A DNA stretch of 23,258 nt from Gammaproteobacteria bacterium (GTDB lineage: Bacteria > Pseudomonadota > Gammaproteobacteria > SZUA-229): the NCBI GenBank assembly GCA_013138755.1, contig WTCC01000160.1, forward strand, positions 1 through 23,258, in the 5' to 3' direction. Under the pieces are notes generated by a model, which was given only the letters and a program-made list of their open reading frames with translations, was not told where the DNA came from and searched no databases. Every line of letters begins with the position of its first letter. Position 1 is the first letter of the stretch. A program made the position numbers and the translations under genes. Below, piece after piece: positions 1,133-16,444 of the stretch.

Positions 1133-2938
1133 ATGTATAACGAATATTTTGGATTTAAAGAGGCGCCTTTTGCTATCGCGCCTGATCCGCGTTATCTATA
1201 TATGACCTCACAACATCGAGAGGCTCTGGCCCACCTTGTTTACGGTCTAAACAGCGAAGGCGGTTGCATCCTTCTCACCGGGGAAGTCGGTACTGGTAAA
1301 ACGACCATCTGTCGATGCCTGCTCGAACAGATACCTAGTCAGGCAAAGGTTGCTCTAGTACTCAATCCGAAAGTAAACGAGATCGAACTACTCGAAACTA
1401 TCTGTGACGAACTGAATATCAGTTACCCTACTGATACAGACAATAGCCTAAAAACTTATACTGACAGAATCTACAATTATCTCATCGAGAGTAATCGAAG
1501 AAATGAAAAGACCGTCTTAATCATCGACGAAGCACAGAACCTGGACAGTAAAGTTCTAGAACAACTGCGGCTATTAACCAATCTGGAAACCAATCAACGC
1601 AAACTTCTACAGATAATAATATTAGGCCAACCAGAACTACTAGACATATTGGCAAGAACTGAGATGCGTCAACTAGCTCAACGCATCACGGCTCGCTTTC
1701 ACCTGAAACCGTTAACCAAACCTGAGATGAAAGCTTATATCAGTCATCGGCTAGCCGTTGCGGGACAAAATATTCAATTGTTTCCAGAAAGCAGTATTAA
1801 ACTTTTGTTTAAGATGAGCAAAGGCATACCAAGACTCATCAACATACTTTGTGACCGAGCATTACTAGGTACTTATGTCGAAAACCAGTATGTCGCTAGC
1901 CCTCAGATTGTAAAAAAAGCAGCAAAAGAAGTTTTTGGTGAGCTTAAAAATGTTGAACAGAGCCAAAAGATTAAACGGTGGTTGTTTCCGGTAGCGATAT
2001 TTGCCAGTATTTCAATTATCGCCATCGTGGCTTTTACTTTATTTACACCACCCTATAACGCTTACGATAGATTTGAACAAGAAGCCGCAACCTCTGCAAA
2101 AACGATTAACCATTCGTCCGATGAAACACTAGAAAAAACACAAACGACAGATACAGCGCAATCAGATCAATCAAAAGAACATCAAACATCAGTCATCCCT
2201 TCACTGGACGACGCAGCAAACCGCCTCGATAATACAATTGCGTCTGAAGAAGTAACACAACAACCAGACCTCACCCCGGCAACCAAAGAGTCACACCAGA
2301 CCAGTATTGACGAGATATTAAATGATACATCCACTAATCCGGCATCTGCCTACCAGGTATTATTTGAAACATGGGGAATGGAATATGAAGCTGAAACAAG
2401 AGCAACAGCCTGCAAACAAGCAGAAACTTATGCATTAAACTGCTTGTATAAAAGTGGAAACCTTAACAGCCTTAAAACACATAACCGTCCAGCTGTTCTA
2501 ACCTTAGTAAACTCGGAAGGAAAAACGCGACACATCACGATAACATCTATTGACGATGACTCTGCCACCGTTTTTTCCGGTAACACCAAACATACCATCA
2601 AATTGACAGAACTAGATAAACACTGGTTTGGGCAATTTATTTTATTATGGAATAAGCCAGAACAATACACCTCCGTCATTCGTCCGGGAGACAGAGGCAA
2701 CATCATCGACTGGCTAAACACGCAACTCGAAAAAATTAATAACACACACTCCACGGGTATTATTAATATTTATGATCAATCTCTTGTTGAAAAAGTTAAA
2801 ACCTTTCAATCAAATCAGGGATTAACTGCTGACGGTATCGTTGGACCGGTTACAATTATCCATATCAATACACAATCTGGCTTAAAGGTGCCCACGCTCA
2901 TGCCAACACCCACGATCACCGCCAATAACAAAAGCTAA
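1133..2938 (+). CDS. gspA: GspA/ExeA-type AAA ATPase with C-terminal peptidoglycan-binding domain
   Basis: A 601-residue inner-membrane ATPase. In Aeromonas the ExeA-ExeB complex binds peptidoglycan and helps the type II secretin assemble in the outer membrane. Visible here: the family N-terminus MYNEYFGFKEAPF; Walker A GEVGTGKTT (50-58); Walker B VLIIDEAQ (128-135); one membrane segment at about 283-304; a low-complexity Thr/Ser/Gln-rich linker to about 400; a C39-peptidase-like fold region (about 405-505, with the ACKQAETYALNCLY stretch typical of GspA and no obvious protease triad); and a PG_binding_1 domain (about 516-585, with LTADGIVGP). gspB starts two bases after the stop, so the pair is surely co-transcribed. 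The C-terminal domain separates it from exosortase- or MSHA-linked ExeA-like ATPases. No other gsp gene is in the window. The start has no clear Shine-Dalgarno, but the N-terminus matches the family. Confidence 0.9.
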   Translation: MYNEYFGFKEAPFAIAPDPRYLYMTSQHREALAHLVYGLNSEGGCILLTGEVGTGKTTICRCLLEQIPSQAKVALVLNPKVNEIELLETICDELNISYPTDTDNSLKTYTDRIYNYLIESNRRNEKTVLIIDEAQNLDSKVLEQLRLLTNLETNQRKLLQIIILGQPELLDILARTEMRQLAQRITARFHLKPLTKPEMKAYISHRLAVAGQNIQLFPESSIKLLFKMSKGIPRLINILCDRALLGTYVENQYVASPQIVKKAAKEVFGELKNVEQSQKIKRWLFPVAIFASISIIAIVAFTLFTPPYNAYDRFEQEAATSAKTINHSSDETLEKTQTTDTAQSDQSKEHQTSVIPSLDDAANRLDNTIASEEVTQQPDLTPATKESHQTSIDEILNDTSTNPASAYQVLFETWGMEYEAETRATACKQAETYALNCLYKSGNLNSLKTHNRPAVLTLVNSEGKTRHITITSIDDDSATVFSGNTKHTIKLTELDKHWFGQFILLWNKPEQYTSVIRPGDRGNIIDWLNTQLEKINNTHSTGIINIYDQSLVEKVKTFQSNQGLTADGIVGPVTIIHINTQSGLKVPTLMPTPTITANNKS

Positions 2939-2940
2939 AT

Positions 2941-3597
2941 ATGTCATATATACTCGATGCCCTTAAGAAATCAGAACAGGAACGCGGAAACAGTAGCATT
3001 CCGAGCGTACAGACCATTCACTCATCGAGTCTAAATTACGCTGATAAAAAGACTGCATGGCCTTATGTTCTTATCGCTGCCTTATTATTAAACCTTGCTG
3101 CCATTCTTTATTATGTTGCTGTCAAAGATAACGATGATATCCCTGCGACTACTGACGAATCGAAAGACAAAGTCCAGCAGATAACTACCACAGAAACGAC
3201 AGCCAATCCGATTATCGAGAAGAGTGTTGACGCCAGGCCAGTTAAAACAAACATAGGCCAGCATGAAGAGGCCTTCACGTCTGAAACTGACCATATGACT
3301 ACACCACGGCAGAAAACGGTTCCTGAACAAAAGGCTCAACAGACGAACAACAAAACCATTGTCGAATTTTATGACCTGCCTGAATCTATAAAACAGCAAT
3401 TGCCAGCCATCATTATTTCAGCACACGTTTATTCAACCAATCCAGCACACCGCAGCATCGTGATCAACAATAATTTTCTGGAAGAAGGAGAGTACATCCT
3501 CGATGACTTAGTCTTGTATGAGATTACCAGTGACGGTGCGATTTTCTCCTACCACGAAACTCTTTTTCATCATGGCGTAGTGAGTTCGTGGCAATAA
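2941..3597 (+). CDS. gspB: GspB/PulB-like type II secretion assembly protein
   Basis: A 218-residue bitopic inner-membrane protein, partner of GspA. The N-terminus MSYILDALKKSEQERG is the family signature. One membrane segment lies at about 41-61, followed by a hydrophilic periplasmic linker (about 65-148) and the conserved C-terminal GspB domain (about 149-212, with AHVYSTNPAHRSIVIN and LYEITSDGAIFSY). The start codon is two bases past the gspA stop, which suggests translational coupling. It lies 17 bases from the 3' end of the convergent rluA. The role, positioning or stabilising the secretin GspD with GspA, is family knowledge; the pairing is direct sequence evidence. Confidence 0.88.
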   Translation: MSYILDALKKSEQERGNSSIPSVQTIHSSSLNYADKKTAWPYVLIAALLLNLAAILYYVAVKDNDDIPATTDESKDKVQQITTTETTANPIIEKSVDARPVKTNIGQHEEAFTSETDHMTTPRQKTVPEQKAQQTNNKTIVEFYDLPESIKQQLPAIIISAHVYSTNPAHRSIVINNNFLEEGEYILDDLVLYEITSDGAIFSYHETLFHHGVVSSWQ

Positions 3598-13799: not shown

Positions 13800-14483
13800 A
13801 TGATCCATTTCGATAATATCTGCAAACGTTATCCTGGCGGACATGATGCCTTAAATCGAATAAATTTACGTCTACCCAAGGGTCAAATGGCCTTTCTTAC
13901 CGGCCATTCAGGCGCTGGAAAAAGCACCTTATTAAAACTAATTGCCATGATAGAGCGGCCGACACGCGGGCAGATATTTCTCGATGGCGTCAACTTAAAC
14001 AACATCAGCAACCGAAAAATTCCATACATCAGGCGTAATATCGGCATCATATTTCAAAATCACCACCTGCTCTACGATCGCCCAGTGTTCGATAATGTCG
14101 CCATGCCGCTTATCATTCAGGGGTACCGACGTCAGGAGATACACAAACGTGTCAGAGCTGCATTAAATCAAGTCGGCCTATTGAGTAAAGAAAAGTCAGA
14201 ACCTATTACTCTTTCTGGCGGCGAACAACAACGCGTCGGTATCGCACGCGCCATCGTCCACAAACCTTTGTTACTGCTTGCAGATGAACCAACTGGTAAT
14301 CTCGACCCGGAGCTGTCGCTGGAAATCATGCAGCTGTTCGCCCGCTTTAATCAGGTCGGCACCACGGTATTAATAGCCAGTCATGATCTCGACCTAATCA
14401 AACTCATCGGAGCACCAAGCATCAGCCTGCAAGATGGAAAAGTAGCTCACAACGGGTTACCTTTCACCGTGAGCAACAACTGA
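13800..14483 (+). CDS. ftsE: Cell division ABC transporter ATP-binding protein FtsE
   Basis: A 227-residue ABC ATPase that pairs with FtsX and regulates periplasmic peptidoglycan hydrolysis (through EnvC in E. coli) and divisome assembly. Walker [10 protein letters not shown] (35-43), Q-loop FQNHHLL, signature LSGGEQQR (138-145), Walker [11 protein letters not shown] and switch His in ASHD are all intact. Length is normal. ftsX starts one base after its stop, so the two are translationally linked. The heptamer repeat cluster lies immediately upstream and no Shine-Dalgarno is obvious. Confidence 0.96.
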
Positions 14484-14484
14484 G

Positions 14485-15429
14485 ATGCGCAACAGCCCAC
14501 ATAGAAAGAACCGACTACGCTCATATTTCAGCCACCATCTACAAGTCAGCCTCGCCAGTCTGGGGCGCCTCTACGCTCAACCCGCCGCCACGCTGATGAC
14601 GACAGCCGTTATCGCCATCGCTCTTGCGCTACCCGTCGGTTTATACATCGCACTGGATAATGTCAGCAAACTCAGCAGTGACTGGGATGGCTCAACGCAG
14701 ATCTCTTTGTTTTTACATACCCATGTCAAAAACAGTGATGCACAAAAATTAATGAATCGCTTGCAGAAACACAGACACATAAAAAAAATCGATTTCATTA
14801 CCAAAGAACAAGGCCTGGAACAATTTAGAGAAACCTCAGGCTTTGGTGATGCCTTAAAGTATCTGGATGACAACCCCCTACCCATCGTGCTGGTCATACA
14901 CCCCAGGATAAAAGAAAATCAGGCAACCACAACAACTCGCCTGGTCAAAGAACTGAGTAAGAATAAATTGGTCGAACTGGCGCAACTGGATGTGCAATGG
15001 GTAAAACGTCTTTACACCCTGCTGGAGATCGCCCACAGAAGCATCTGGGTCATCAGCACGATGCTGGCTTTCGCTGTCTTGTTAATTATCGGCAACACCA
15101 TTCGGCTAGACATACAAAATCGCCGTGAAGAAATTGAGGTATCCAAACTCATTGGCGCTTCGGATGCCTTTATCCGGCGGCCTTTTTTATATACTGGCTT
15201 ATGGTATGGCATCATCGGTGGTCTGCTCGCTACCATCGTTACATTCATAACATTATTATTAATAGAAAGCCCTATTCACCGACTAGCACTGCTTTACCAC
15301 AGCGATTTCCATCTACATGGGCTGGGTTTTGCAAAAACGCTATTATTGATACTCATCAGTTGCTCACTAGGACTCATTGGCTCATGGATAGCGGTAAGCA
15401 GACACTTAAAAGAAATCGAACCATGCTGA
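14485..15429 (+). CDS. ftsX: Cell division protein FtsX
   Basis: A 314-residue inner-membrane permease-fold subunit of FtsEX. A basic cytoplasmic N-terminus is followed by a first membrane segment (about 36-58), a periplasmic domain (about 60-175, with ISLFLHTHVKNSDAQKL) that contacts the hydrolase activator, and three further membrane segments (about 186-207, 233-258 and 287-306). The conserved cytoplasmic stretch NRREEIEVSKLIGASDAFIRRPF is present. It starts one base past ftsE. rpoH follows after a gap holding a CIRCE element. Confidence 0.95.
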   Translation: MRNSPHRKNRLRSYFSHHLQVSLASLGRLYAQPAATLMTTAVIAIALALPVGLYIALDNVSKLSSDWDGSTQISLFLHTHVKNSDAQKLMNRLQKHRHIKKIDFITKEQGLEQFRETSGFGDALKYLDDNPLPIVLVIHPRIKENQATTTTRLVKELSKNKLVELAQLDVQWVKRLYTLLEIAHRSIWVISTMLAFAVLLIIGNTIRLDIQNRREEIEVSKLIGASDAFIRRPFLYTGLWYGIIGGLLATIVTFITLLLIESPIHRLALLYHSDFHLHGLGFAKTLLLILISCSLGLIGSWIAVSRHLKEIEPC

Positions 15430-15532
15430 TAATTACTTAACATAATCATCTAGTTACAGTAAAAAAAGTTTTCCGGGCGACAGCCATCTTTGTTCAGAGA
15501 ATCAATCAACTTTTAATGAACTTTCCTCATAA

Positions 15533-15559
15533 TTAGCACTCTTACTTTAGGAGTGCTAA
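15533..15559 (+). promoter_or_regulatory. CIRCE element (HrcA operator) upstream of rpoH
   Basis: TTAGCACTC, nine bases, then GAGTGCTAA: a perfect 9-9-9 inverted repeat with no mismatch to the CIRCE consensus. CIRCE is the binding site of HrcA, the heat-labile repressor that usually controls groESL and dnaKJ. Here it ends 24 bases before the preferred rpoH start at 15584. A -10-like CATAAT (15528-15533) abuts its left arm, so bound HrcA would cover the transcription start. No good -35 is visible. Confidence 0.92.
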
Positions 15560-15583
15560 AATCACCTTATGAGAGAAAACGAT

Positions 15584-16444
15584 ATGACAACAGCTCTGGT
15601 TACGACCCTACAGAATACGCCCTTAAGTGCTGGCAACCTGAATGCGTATATCCGCCAAATTCACAGTATTCCTGTTCTAAGCAGTGAAGAAGAACGTGAG
15701 CTTGCGTTGCGCCTGGAACAACAAGATGATCTTGCCGCTGCACAACAATTAATTATGTCGAATCTGCGCTTCGTGGTAAAAATAGCACGCGGTTACGCGG
15801 GTTACGGTCTTCCACTGGGTGATTTAATTCAGGAAGGTAACATCGGCTTGATGAAAGCGGTAAAACGCTTCTCTGCTAGCCATGAGGTGCGACTGATATC
15901 CTATGCTGTCCACTGGATAAAATCTGAAATCCATGAGTTTGTATTACGTAACTGGCGCATCGTTAAAGTAGCAACGACCAAACCACAACGTAAGTTATTT
16001 TTCAAACTACGTAGCTCTAAAAAAAGATTAGGCTGGTTTAATCAGGATGAAGTTAACGACGTTGCTGAAACATTGGGCGTTAAGCCAGAAACCGTACTTG
16101 AGATGGAATCTCGTTTAAGTGGTAGCGACGTAACTTTTGACCCACCAACAAATGATAATGATGACGAACACCATTTCACCCCTGCTGCTTATCTTACCGA
16201 TGACCGAGCAGATCCAGCCCACCAGCTGGAAAGTGATGACATCCAGTCTCAGCAACTTACTTTAATGAGCGACTCATTAAAAACACTTGATGATCGCAGC
16301 AAGGCCATCATTCAACGTCGCTGGTTAAATGAGGACAAAGCCACGCTACATGAACTGGCTGACGAATATAAAGTGTCTGCTGAACGCATACGTCAGATCG
16401 AAAAAAATGCGTTAGGCAAGATGCGGGTAATCTTCGAAGCTTAG
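15584..16444 (+). CDS. rpoH: RNA polymerase heat-shock sigma factor RpoH (sigma-32)
   Basis: An alternative sigma factor that directs heat-shock gene transcription. From Met at 15584 it is 286 residues and begins MTTALVTTLQNT, like Pseudomonas RpoH. A GAGAG ribosome site sits eight bases upstream. An ATG at 15569 would add five residues but has no ribosome site. Visible: region 2 (NLRFVVKIARGYAGYGLPLGDLIQEGNIGLMKAVKRF, about 60-96), the RpoH box QRKLFFKLR (135-143) that separates RpoH from other sigma-70 paralogues, and the region 4 helix-turn-helix (HELADEYKVSAERIRQIEKNA). A CIRCE element lies just upstream, implying repression by HrcA; a Rho-independent terminator follows. Confidence 0.96.
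   Translation: MTTALVTTLQNTPLSAGNLNAYIRQIHSIPVLSSEEERELALRLEQQDDLAAAQQLIMSNLRFVVKIARGYAGYGLPLGDLIQEGNIGLMKAVKRFSASHEVRLISYAVHWIKSEIHEFVLRNWRIVKVATTKPQRKLFFKLRSSKKRLGWFNQDEVNDVAETLGVKPETVLEMESRLSGSDVTFDPPTNDNDDEHHFTPAAYLTDDRADPAHQLESDDIQSQQLTLMSDSLKTLDDRSKAIIQRRWLNEDKATLHELADEYKVSAERIRQIEKNALGKMRVIFEA

Follow-up and report, generated by a model that had tools for sequence, protein, structure and literature searches.

Textbook accounts contrast two ways of running the bacterial heat-shock response: sigma-32 in E. coli, and the HrcA repressor with its CIRCE operator elsewhere. Promoters that depend on sigma-E (RpoE) take the form of a GAACTT -35 element, a spacer of 15 to 17 bp, and a TCTNA-like -10 element. 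One of the E. coli rpoH promoters, P3, is sigma-E-dependent and consists of GAACTT, a 16-bp spacer, and TCTNA. In Geobacter sulfurreducens, a perfect CIRCE was reported in 2004 before rpoH, at -51 relative to the start codon, and others before groESL and hrcA-grpE-dnaK-dnaJ (PMC545781, Table 8, as far as the portions of that report available to us go). Those portions describe no overlap between the rpoH CIRCE and a sigma-E promoter (PMC545781). Like the locus analyzed here, that of G. sulfurreducens has a CIRCE before rpoH, but the organism lies outside the class of our host. In the Geobacteraceae locus of our own comparison (L145), CIRCE is present and GAACTT is absent at both -15 and -16.

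In the window, by which we mean the whole 23,258-nucleotide stretch of DNA analyzed, positions 15533 to 15559 of the forward strand form a perfect CIRCE, TTAGCACTC-TTACTTTAG-GAGTGCTAA. A palindrome scan for TTAGCACTC-N9-GAGTGCTAA found this element, the expected HrcA site, with 0 mismatches, and it is kept before rpoH in relatives. At up to 3 mismatches it was the only match in the window, against a mean of 0.01 in 100 dinucleotide shuffles. Between its end and the ATG at 15584 lie 24 bases, which puts it in the promoter or leader of a heat-shock gene: the reading frame at 15584 to 16444 (forward strand, with an alternative in-frame ATG at 15569) matches the RpoH profile TIGR02392 at 391.7 bits against a cut-off of 323.1. 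The claim of the first-pass annotation that a perfect CIRCE stands directly before rpoH was thus borne out. The gene order is ftsY-ftsE-ftsX-rpoH, with ftsE at 13800-14483 and ftsX at 14485-15429, both on the forward strand and above the cut-offs of their profiles (ftsE/ftsX: TIGR02673, TIGR00439). A plasmid search with the region upstream of rpoH returned no match.

The assembly of the host (2.15 Mb in 368 contigs, 73% complete) contains two such palindromes at up to 3 mismatches, both perfect, namely the rpoH CIRCE and one more copy, before groES (contig C49), which shares its sequence and its expected regulator. A reversed-pattern control found none in the same assembly at that threshold, and the same CIRCE scan of the rpoH reading frame itself, at 143 loci, found no site with fewer than 6 mismatches. 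The shuffles, the assembly scan, and the reading-frame scan together rule out a chance palindrome. Elsewhere in the window, positions 1133-2938 encode a 601-residue AAA ATPase with GspA C39-like and peptidoglycan-binding domains, of the GspA/ExeA type, followed by a 218-residue open reading frame (2941-3597). The genes at 1133-3597 likely serve secretion or pilus assembly.

The element is kept throughout the close relatives. Within the genus (18 genomes in all), a CIRCE precedes rpoH in 16 of the 16 genomes with a full rpoH, our own included, at 24-28 bases before the projected start; 11 of these elements are perfect, 4 have one mismatch, and 1 has two. The 13 other family genomes with a readable rpoH upstream region (of 19 in all) likewise carry it, with at most one mismatch. 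RpoH-grade matches were obtained in 50 of the 58 genomes searched, one of them partial, and the other 8 matched through other sigma factors only.

For a wider view, we used a class sample of 140 genomes, made up of our own and genomes drawn evenly at at least 95% completeness, and searched it for rpoH and hrcA. The class as sampled takes in the former Betaproteobacteria. The rpoH upstream region was obtained from 133 genomes besides our own, and the scan used the best rpoH locus of each genome (L064 being replaced by L167, the same gene). A second copy of one locus (L194, from G050) and extra RpoH paralogs of two genomes (L267, L293, and L297, from G066 and G111) were left out of the count, and G037, G044, G022, G041, and G056 lie outside the class sample. 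At up to 3 mismatches, 92 of the 100 genomes with hrcA carried an rpoH CIRCE, against 4 of the 33 in which hrcA was not detected (Fisher P = 7e-18, uncorrected for kinship). We considered kinship with a FastTree tree built from the 133 RpoH proteins. Among 8 independent hrcA pairs on supported branches, CIRCE agreed in direction in an average of 6.3 and went the opposite way in 0 (sign test, median P = 0.031, range 0.016-0.25).

Among the genomes sampled, a CIRCE before rpoH is therefore the rule where hrcA exists, and it is not exotic, since 92 of 100 genomes with hrcA carry one and only 8 of 100 do not. The first-pass annotation had treated this placement as unusual; it turns out to be the normal state of the sampled genomes with hrcA, and the G. 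sulfurreducens case (PMC545781, as available to us) had been on record since 2004. Its other proposal, that HrcA controls rpoH, gains from the conservation in genus and family, from the class-wide co-occurrence, and from the kinship pairs, and the repression itself stays a prediction. Four genomes that are 97-99% complete kept the rpoH CIRCE while hrcA was not found (L164 of G052, L196 of G098, L245 of G139, and L285 of G145); candidate readings are a missed gene, a recent loss, or another regulator. In a further set of 80 named loci, for which hrcA status was not part of the set, 42 had a CIRCE. They include Dyella, Methylocaldum, Nitrosomonas communis, Pandoraea, Trinickia, Pseudoalteromonas, and a Geobacteraceae metagenome-assembled genome. 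No CIRCE was found at the Vibrio, Shewanella, Aeromonas, and enterobacterial loci among the 80. Some of the named loci may be from the same species as sampled genomes, and only one identical pair was removed.

A search of the host's own assembly, which is 73% complete, did not turn up the repressor gene. One explanation would be that this species has lost HrcA and that its CIRCE is a relic which no longer works, a reading favored by the 4 of 33 genomes that keep an rpoH CIRCE without a detected hrcA. We regard this as very improbable, the least probable of the alternatives we weighed, because both CIRCEs of the genome are perfect and hrcA is present in all 6 congeners that are at least 88% complete. 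Across 17 congeners, hrcA was found in 12, in 2 of them as a partial or split gene. In 6 congeners the block runs from hrcA to grpE, dnaK, and dnaJ, as far as the stretch compared reaches, and on the other side of hrcA lies a divergent long open reading frame of 1290-1394 residues, in one case cut by a contig end. Like hrcA, grpE was not found in the host assembly, even though bacteria generally need it. In a DNA search of this assembly with 10.9 kb of the block from one congener (G005), there were 5 matches, 1 strong and 4 short. The strong one is the ABC-transporter gene at the far end of the block, and it stops at the last base (4800) of contig C255; one of the short ones, 294 bases at 65% identity within dnaK, looks like a paralog. 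Because grpE is missing too and contig C255 breaks off at the edge of this block, the missing hrcA is probably an assembly gap, and its loss in this species is unlikely.

A predicted sigma-E promoter runs into the rpoH CIRCE. Its -35 element, GAACTT (15518 to 15523, forward strand), starts exactly 15 bases before CIRCE and ends 9 before it. Its -10 element, TCTTA (15540 to 15544, forward strand), stands 16 bp from GAACTT and straddles the junction of left arm and spacer, with two bases in the arm and three in the spacer. The resulting GAACTT-N16-TCTTA (15518-15544) fits the sigma-E consensus given above. GAAC (15518-15521) is invariant in all 29 sequences of the near set: 16 of 16 from the genus, 12 from the family, and 1 from the class.

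The -35 element also occurs outside the near relatives. At up to one mismatch, GAACTT stands at -15 before 90 of 168 rpoH CIRCEs, whereas the 99 other offsets tested average 0.92. By group, the counts are 16/16 for the genus, 10/12 for the family, 46/98 for the class, and 18/42 for the named loci, and 9 further genomes of the class sample have the sigma-E -35 at -16. (The 168 loci exclude L167, and L059 is too short for the -35 test.) CIRCE lies anywhere from about 5 to 193 bases before the projected start codon while the GAACTT offset holds at -15 or -16, and thus the fixed spacing does not come from a fixed leader. As controls, we used the CIRCEs present in 38 of 42 groES loci and 24 of 32 hrcA loci, with one locus occurring twice in each set (G055, as L009 and L321; G047, as L005 and L348). 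At the same threshold, GAACTT stood at -15 in 0 of the 38 groES and 0 of the 24 hrcA CIRCEs; one hrcA CIRCE has it at two mismatches. The first spacer base is T in 70% of the 168 rpoH CIRCEs, 8% of the groES CIRCEs, and 38% of the hrcA CIRCEs, and the third is A in 74%, 24%, and 29%, respectively.

The other side of the palindrome resembles a sigma-70 promoter. The right arm plus the following AAT gives a predicted extended -10, TGCTAAAAT (15554 to 15562, forward strand), and the left arm supplies a -35-like TTAGCA (15533-15538, forward strand) at a spacer of 18 to the extended -10. This prediction draws on conservation plus a match to the consensus, the latter being near chance by itself: the site scored 9 of 12 matches, with TG ahead of the hexamer, and the scan gave 2 sites in 401 bases where 1.1 were expected. 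Across loci, the right arm plus AAT reads TGCTAAAAT or TGCTAATAT, and TGCTANNAT occurs in 124 of 168 rpoH CIRCE loci (genus 15/16, family 9/12, class 66/98, named 34/42). T holds the last place in 92% of rpoH CIRCEs, against 11% in groES and 33% in hrcA CIRCEs.

The first-pass annotation had instead pointed to CATAAT (15528 to 15533, forward strand), a -10-like hexamer that lies within the predicted sigma-E spacer and shares its last base with CIRCE. With this hexamer as a sigma-70 -10, the locus could be under plain HrcA/CIRCE control of the kind seen at groES, and GAACTT and TCTTA would stand there by chance. In the class, TATNAT does stand just before the operator at groES, in the place where CATAAT is present here, whereas the predicted -10 elements of rpoH lie inside CIRCE. 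By our count by eye, however, only 7 of 16 genus upstream regions have NATAAT at that place, against 16 of 16 for GAAC. CATAAT is therefore not the conserved element and probably not the one that matters most for the promoter. The fixed -15 offset is also absent from the 62 other CIRCEs, and GAACTT occurs in 0 of the 11 CIRCE-bearing genomes that lack rpoE. In view of these last two observations, chance can no longer be maintained for the class taken together, and we consider plain control improbable at this locus as well, though somewhat less so than the other alternatives weighed here.

Variation within the arms shows two further patterns. The third base of the left arm is G (TTGGCACTC) in 23% of rpoH CIRCEs, and the mirrored change in the right arm occurs in about 1%; this G makes the left arm more like a sigma-70 -35. 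Because hrcA CIRCEs (50% vs. 21%) and groES CIRCEs (13% vs. 5%) are asymmetric in the same way, the left-arm G is not special to rpoH. A C at the third base of the right arm (GACTGCTAA-like) occurs in 11% of the 168 rpoH CIRCEs and in 0 of 38 groES CIRCEs. Loci with this variant are L042, L044, L045, L046, and L048 in the genus, as well as L074, L075, L088, and L157, and the left arm is altered too (CAGTC) in Luteimonas (L074), Lysobacteraceae (L088), and Xanthomonas (L075). The C variant may be a weaker or re-tuned predicted HrcA site special to rpoH.

If the GAACTT element is used by sigma-E, its distribution should be compared with that of rpoE. The host genome carries rpoE (contig C312, E = 5.9e-91, above cut-off). 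Among the CIRCE-bearing class genomes, GAACTT at -15 or -16 with up to one mismatch was found in 54 of 85 with rpoE, against 0 of 11 without it (P = 5e-5, uncorrected for kinship). In the kinship comparison, 4.0 of 6 pairs went the same way and 0 the opposite way, with a median P of 0.125, and the link between rpoE and the sigma-E motif is weak once kinship is considered. The sigma-E part of the architecture is also not universal, as 42 of the 96 CIRCE-bearing class genomes had no sigma-E -35 at up to one mismatch. A free scan of the 37 class genomes without CIRCE found a sigma-E promoter upstream of rpoH in 10 of the 20 that carry rpoE and in 1 of the 17 that lack it, compared to 2.9% in shuffles. 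Given these co-occurrences, the presence of the sigma-E promoter tends to go with that of rpoE, and the presence of the operator with that of hrcA, independently of each other. Among CIRCE-less named loci, 19 of 37 had a sigma-E-type promoter (L133, which is short, was skipped, and L141, which has no upstream DNA, was scored as a miss).

The leader between CIRCE and rpoH offers two start codons. Two in-frame ATGs, 15 bases apart, lie at 15569-15586 (ATGAGAGAA...ATG) and are kept, without indels, in 16 of 16 genus sequences. The ATG at 15584 is the likelier start, with GAGAGA (15571 to 15576, forward strand) as its likely ribosome binding site, and the one at 15569 is possible. GAGAGA, GAGAAA, or GAGGAA occupies the ribosome-site position in all 16 genus sequences. 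Because the first ATG (15569) coincides with the predicted sigma-70 start, a leaderless rpoH start is conceivable. In several congeners (L043, L045, L051, L052, and L053), we also noticed an inverted element of the type cacagaggcacagag...ctctgtgcctctgtggt upstream of rpoH that resembles a small mobile repeat.

Control at the level of RNA would be another explanation for the palindrome, with a leader hairpin that hides GAGAGA by pairing it with an upstream pyrimidine run and that melts on heating. An RNA beginning at 15520, upstream of CIRCE, does fold into a long hairpin covering GAGAGA (z = -4.05), and 14 of 16 genus members fold alike, as judged by eye. RNAs beginning at 15550 or 15569, however, have no such fold (z = +1.83 and +1.08), and farther than about 31 bases before CIRCE we saw no run of conserved columns that would suit an upstream promoter. 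Single-sided right-arm changes (GACTGC, in 5 of 16 genus members) break an RNA pair, and a search of Rfam over 15300-16000 gave no thermometer match and one snoRNA match far below cut-off. We judge this explanation to be quite improbable, somewhat more so than plain control by HrcA. If the hairpin has a role, it may be confined to transcripts that read through from upstream. The suggestion of the first-pass annotation that the CIRCE hairpin itself could affect RpoH translation is likewise weak, because both predicted transcript starts lie downstream of the left arm.

Based on the elements themselves, their fixed spacing, the restriction of that spacing to rpoH among the CIRCEs compared, and the co-occurrence with hrcA and rpoE, we think it likely that this CIRCE is an HrcA operator over a two-promoter rpoH control region, with predicted sigma-E and sigma-70 promoters. 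HrcA binding, repression, promoter use, start sites, and a feedback loop are what we infer from this arrangement. Both predicted -10 elements overlap CIRCE, and HrcA is therefore predicted to occlude both promoters. At normal temperature, GroE-assisted HrcA would sit on CIRCE and cover the sigma-E -10 of GAACTT-N16-TCTTA, the sigma-70 extended -10 TGCTAAAAT, and the sigma-E start near 15550. In Campylobacter, HrcA has been described as losing DNA binding on heating and as assisted by GroE (PMC8533110, as far as the parts available to us report). Here, heat would make HrcA lose its binding, or misfolded proteins would titrate GroE. With HrcA off, rpoH would be read with sigma-70, and more strongly with sigma-E under envelope stress. 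RpoH would then raise chaperones including GroE, which would restore HrcA and shut rpoH again. The proposed loop would be a transcriptional version of the chaperone feedback that acts in E. coli on the RpoH protein.

The predicted sigma-E promoter has the same form as P3 of E. coli rpoH. At enterobacterial loci such as L095, L096 (Kluyvera), L114 (Lelliottia), and L126, GAACTT-N16-TCTGA is present and CIRCE is not, and there the sigma-E promoter is about 115-150 bases from the projected start codon, whereas it is 66 bases from it in this window. We found no HrcA operator overlapping a sigma-E promoter in the literature on CIRCE/HrcA, rpoH, and rpoE that we searched, largely without full texts, and we believe that this overlap is the new part. 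RegPrecise, Permina and Gelfand 2003, and a 2007 paper on Geobacter RpoH may contain cases of CIRCE before rpoH.

For the class as a whole, we lean slightly toward a broader proposal: in its HrcA-bearing members, one palindrome would serve as HrcA operator, sigma-E -10, and sigma-70 -10 and make rpoH an AND gate, and an E. coli-type P3 without operator would be the remnant after hrcA was lost. If this is true, sigma-E activation would pass only once HrcA has let go. Mutations can be placed in the sigma-E -35, in the CIRCE spacer, or in the AAT that follows CIRCE without touching the HrcA half-sites. In terms of the textbook contrast, the data suggest that the two systems are connected in series in most of the sampled genomes with hrcA, with HrcA acting on the rpoH promoters, and that in about half of those genomes envelope stress enters through sigma-E at the same 27 bases. 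The predicted AND gate would then combine cytoplasmic and envelope stress, and the E. coli circuit looks like a derived one.
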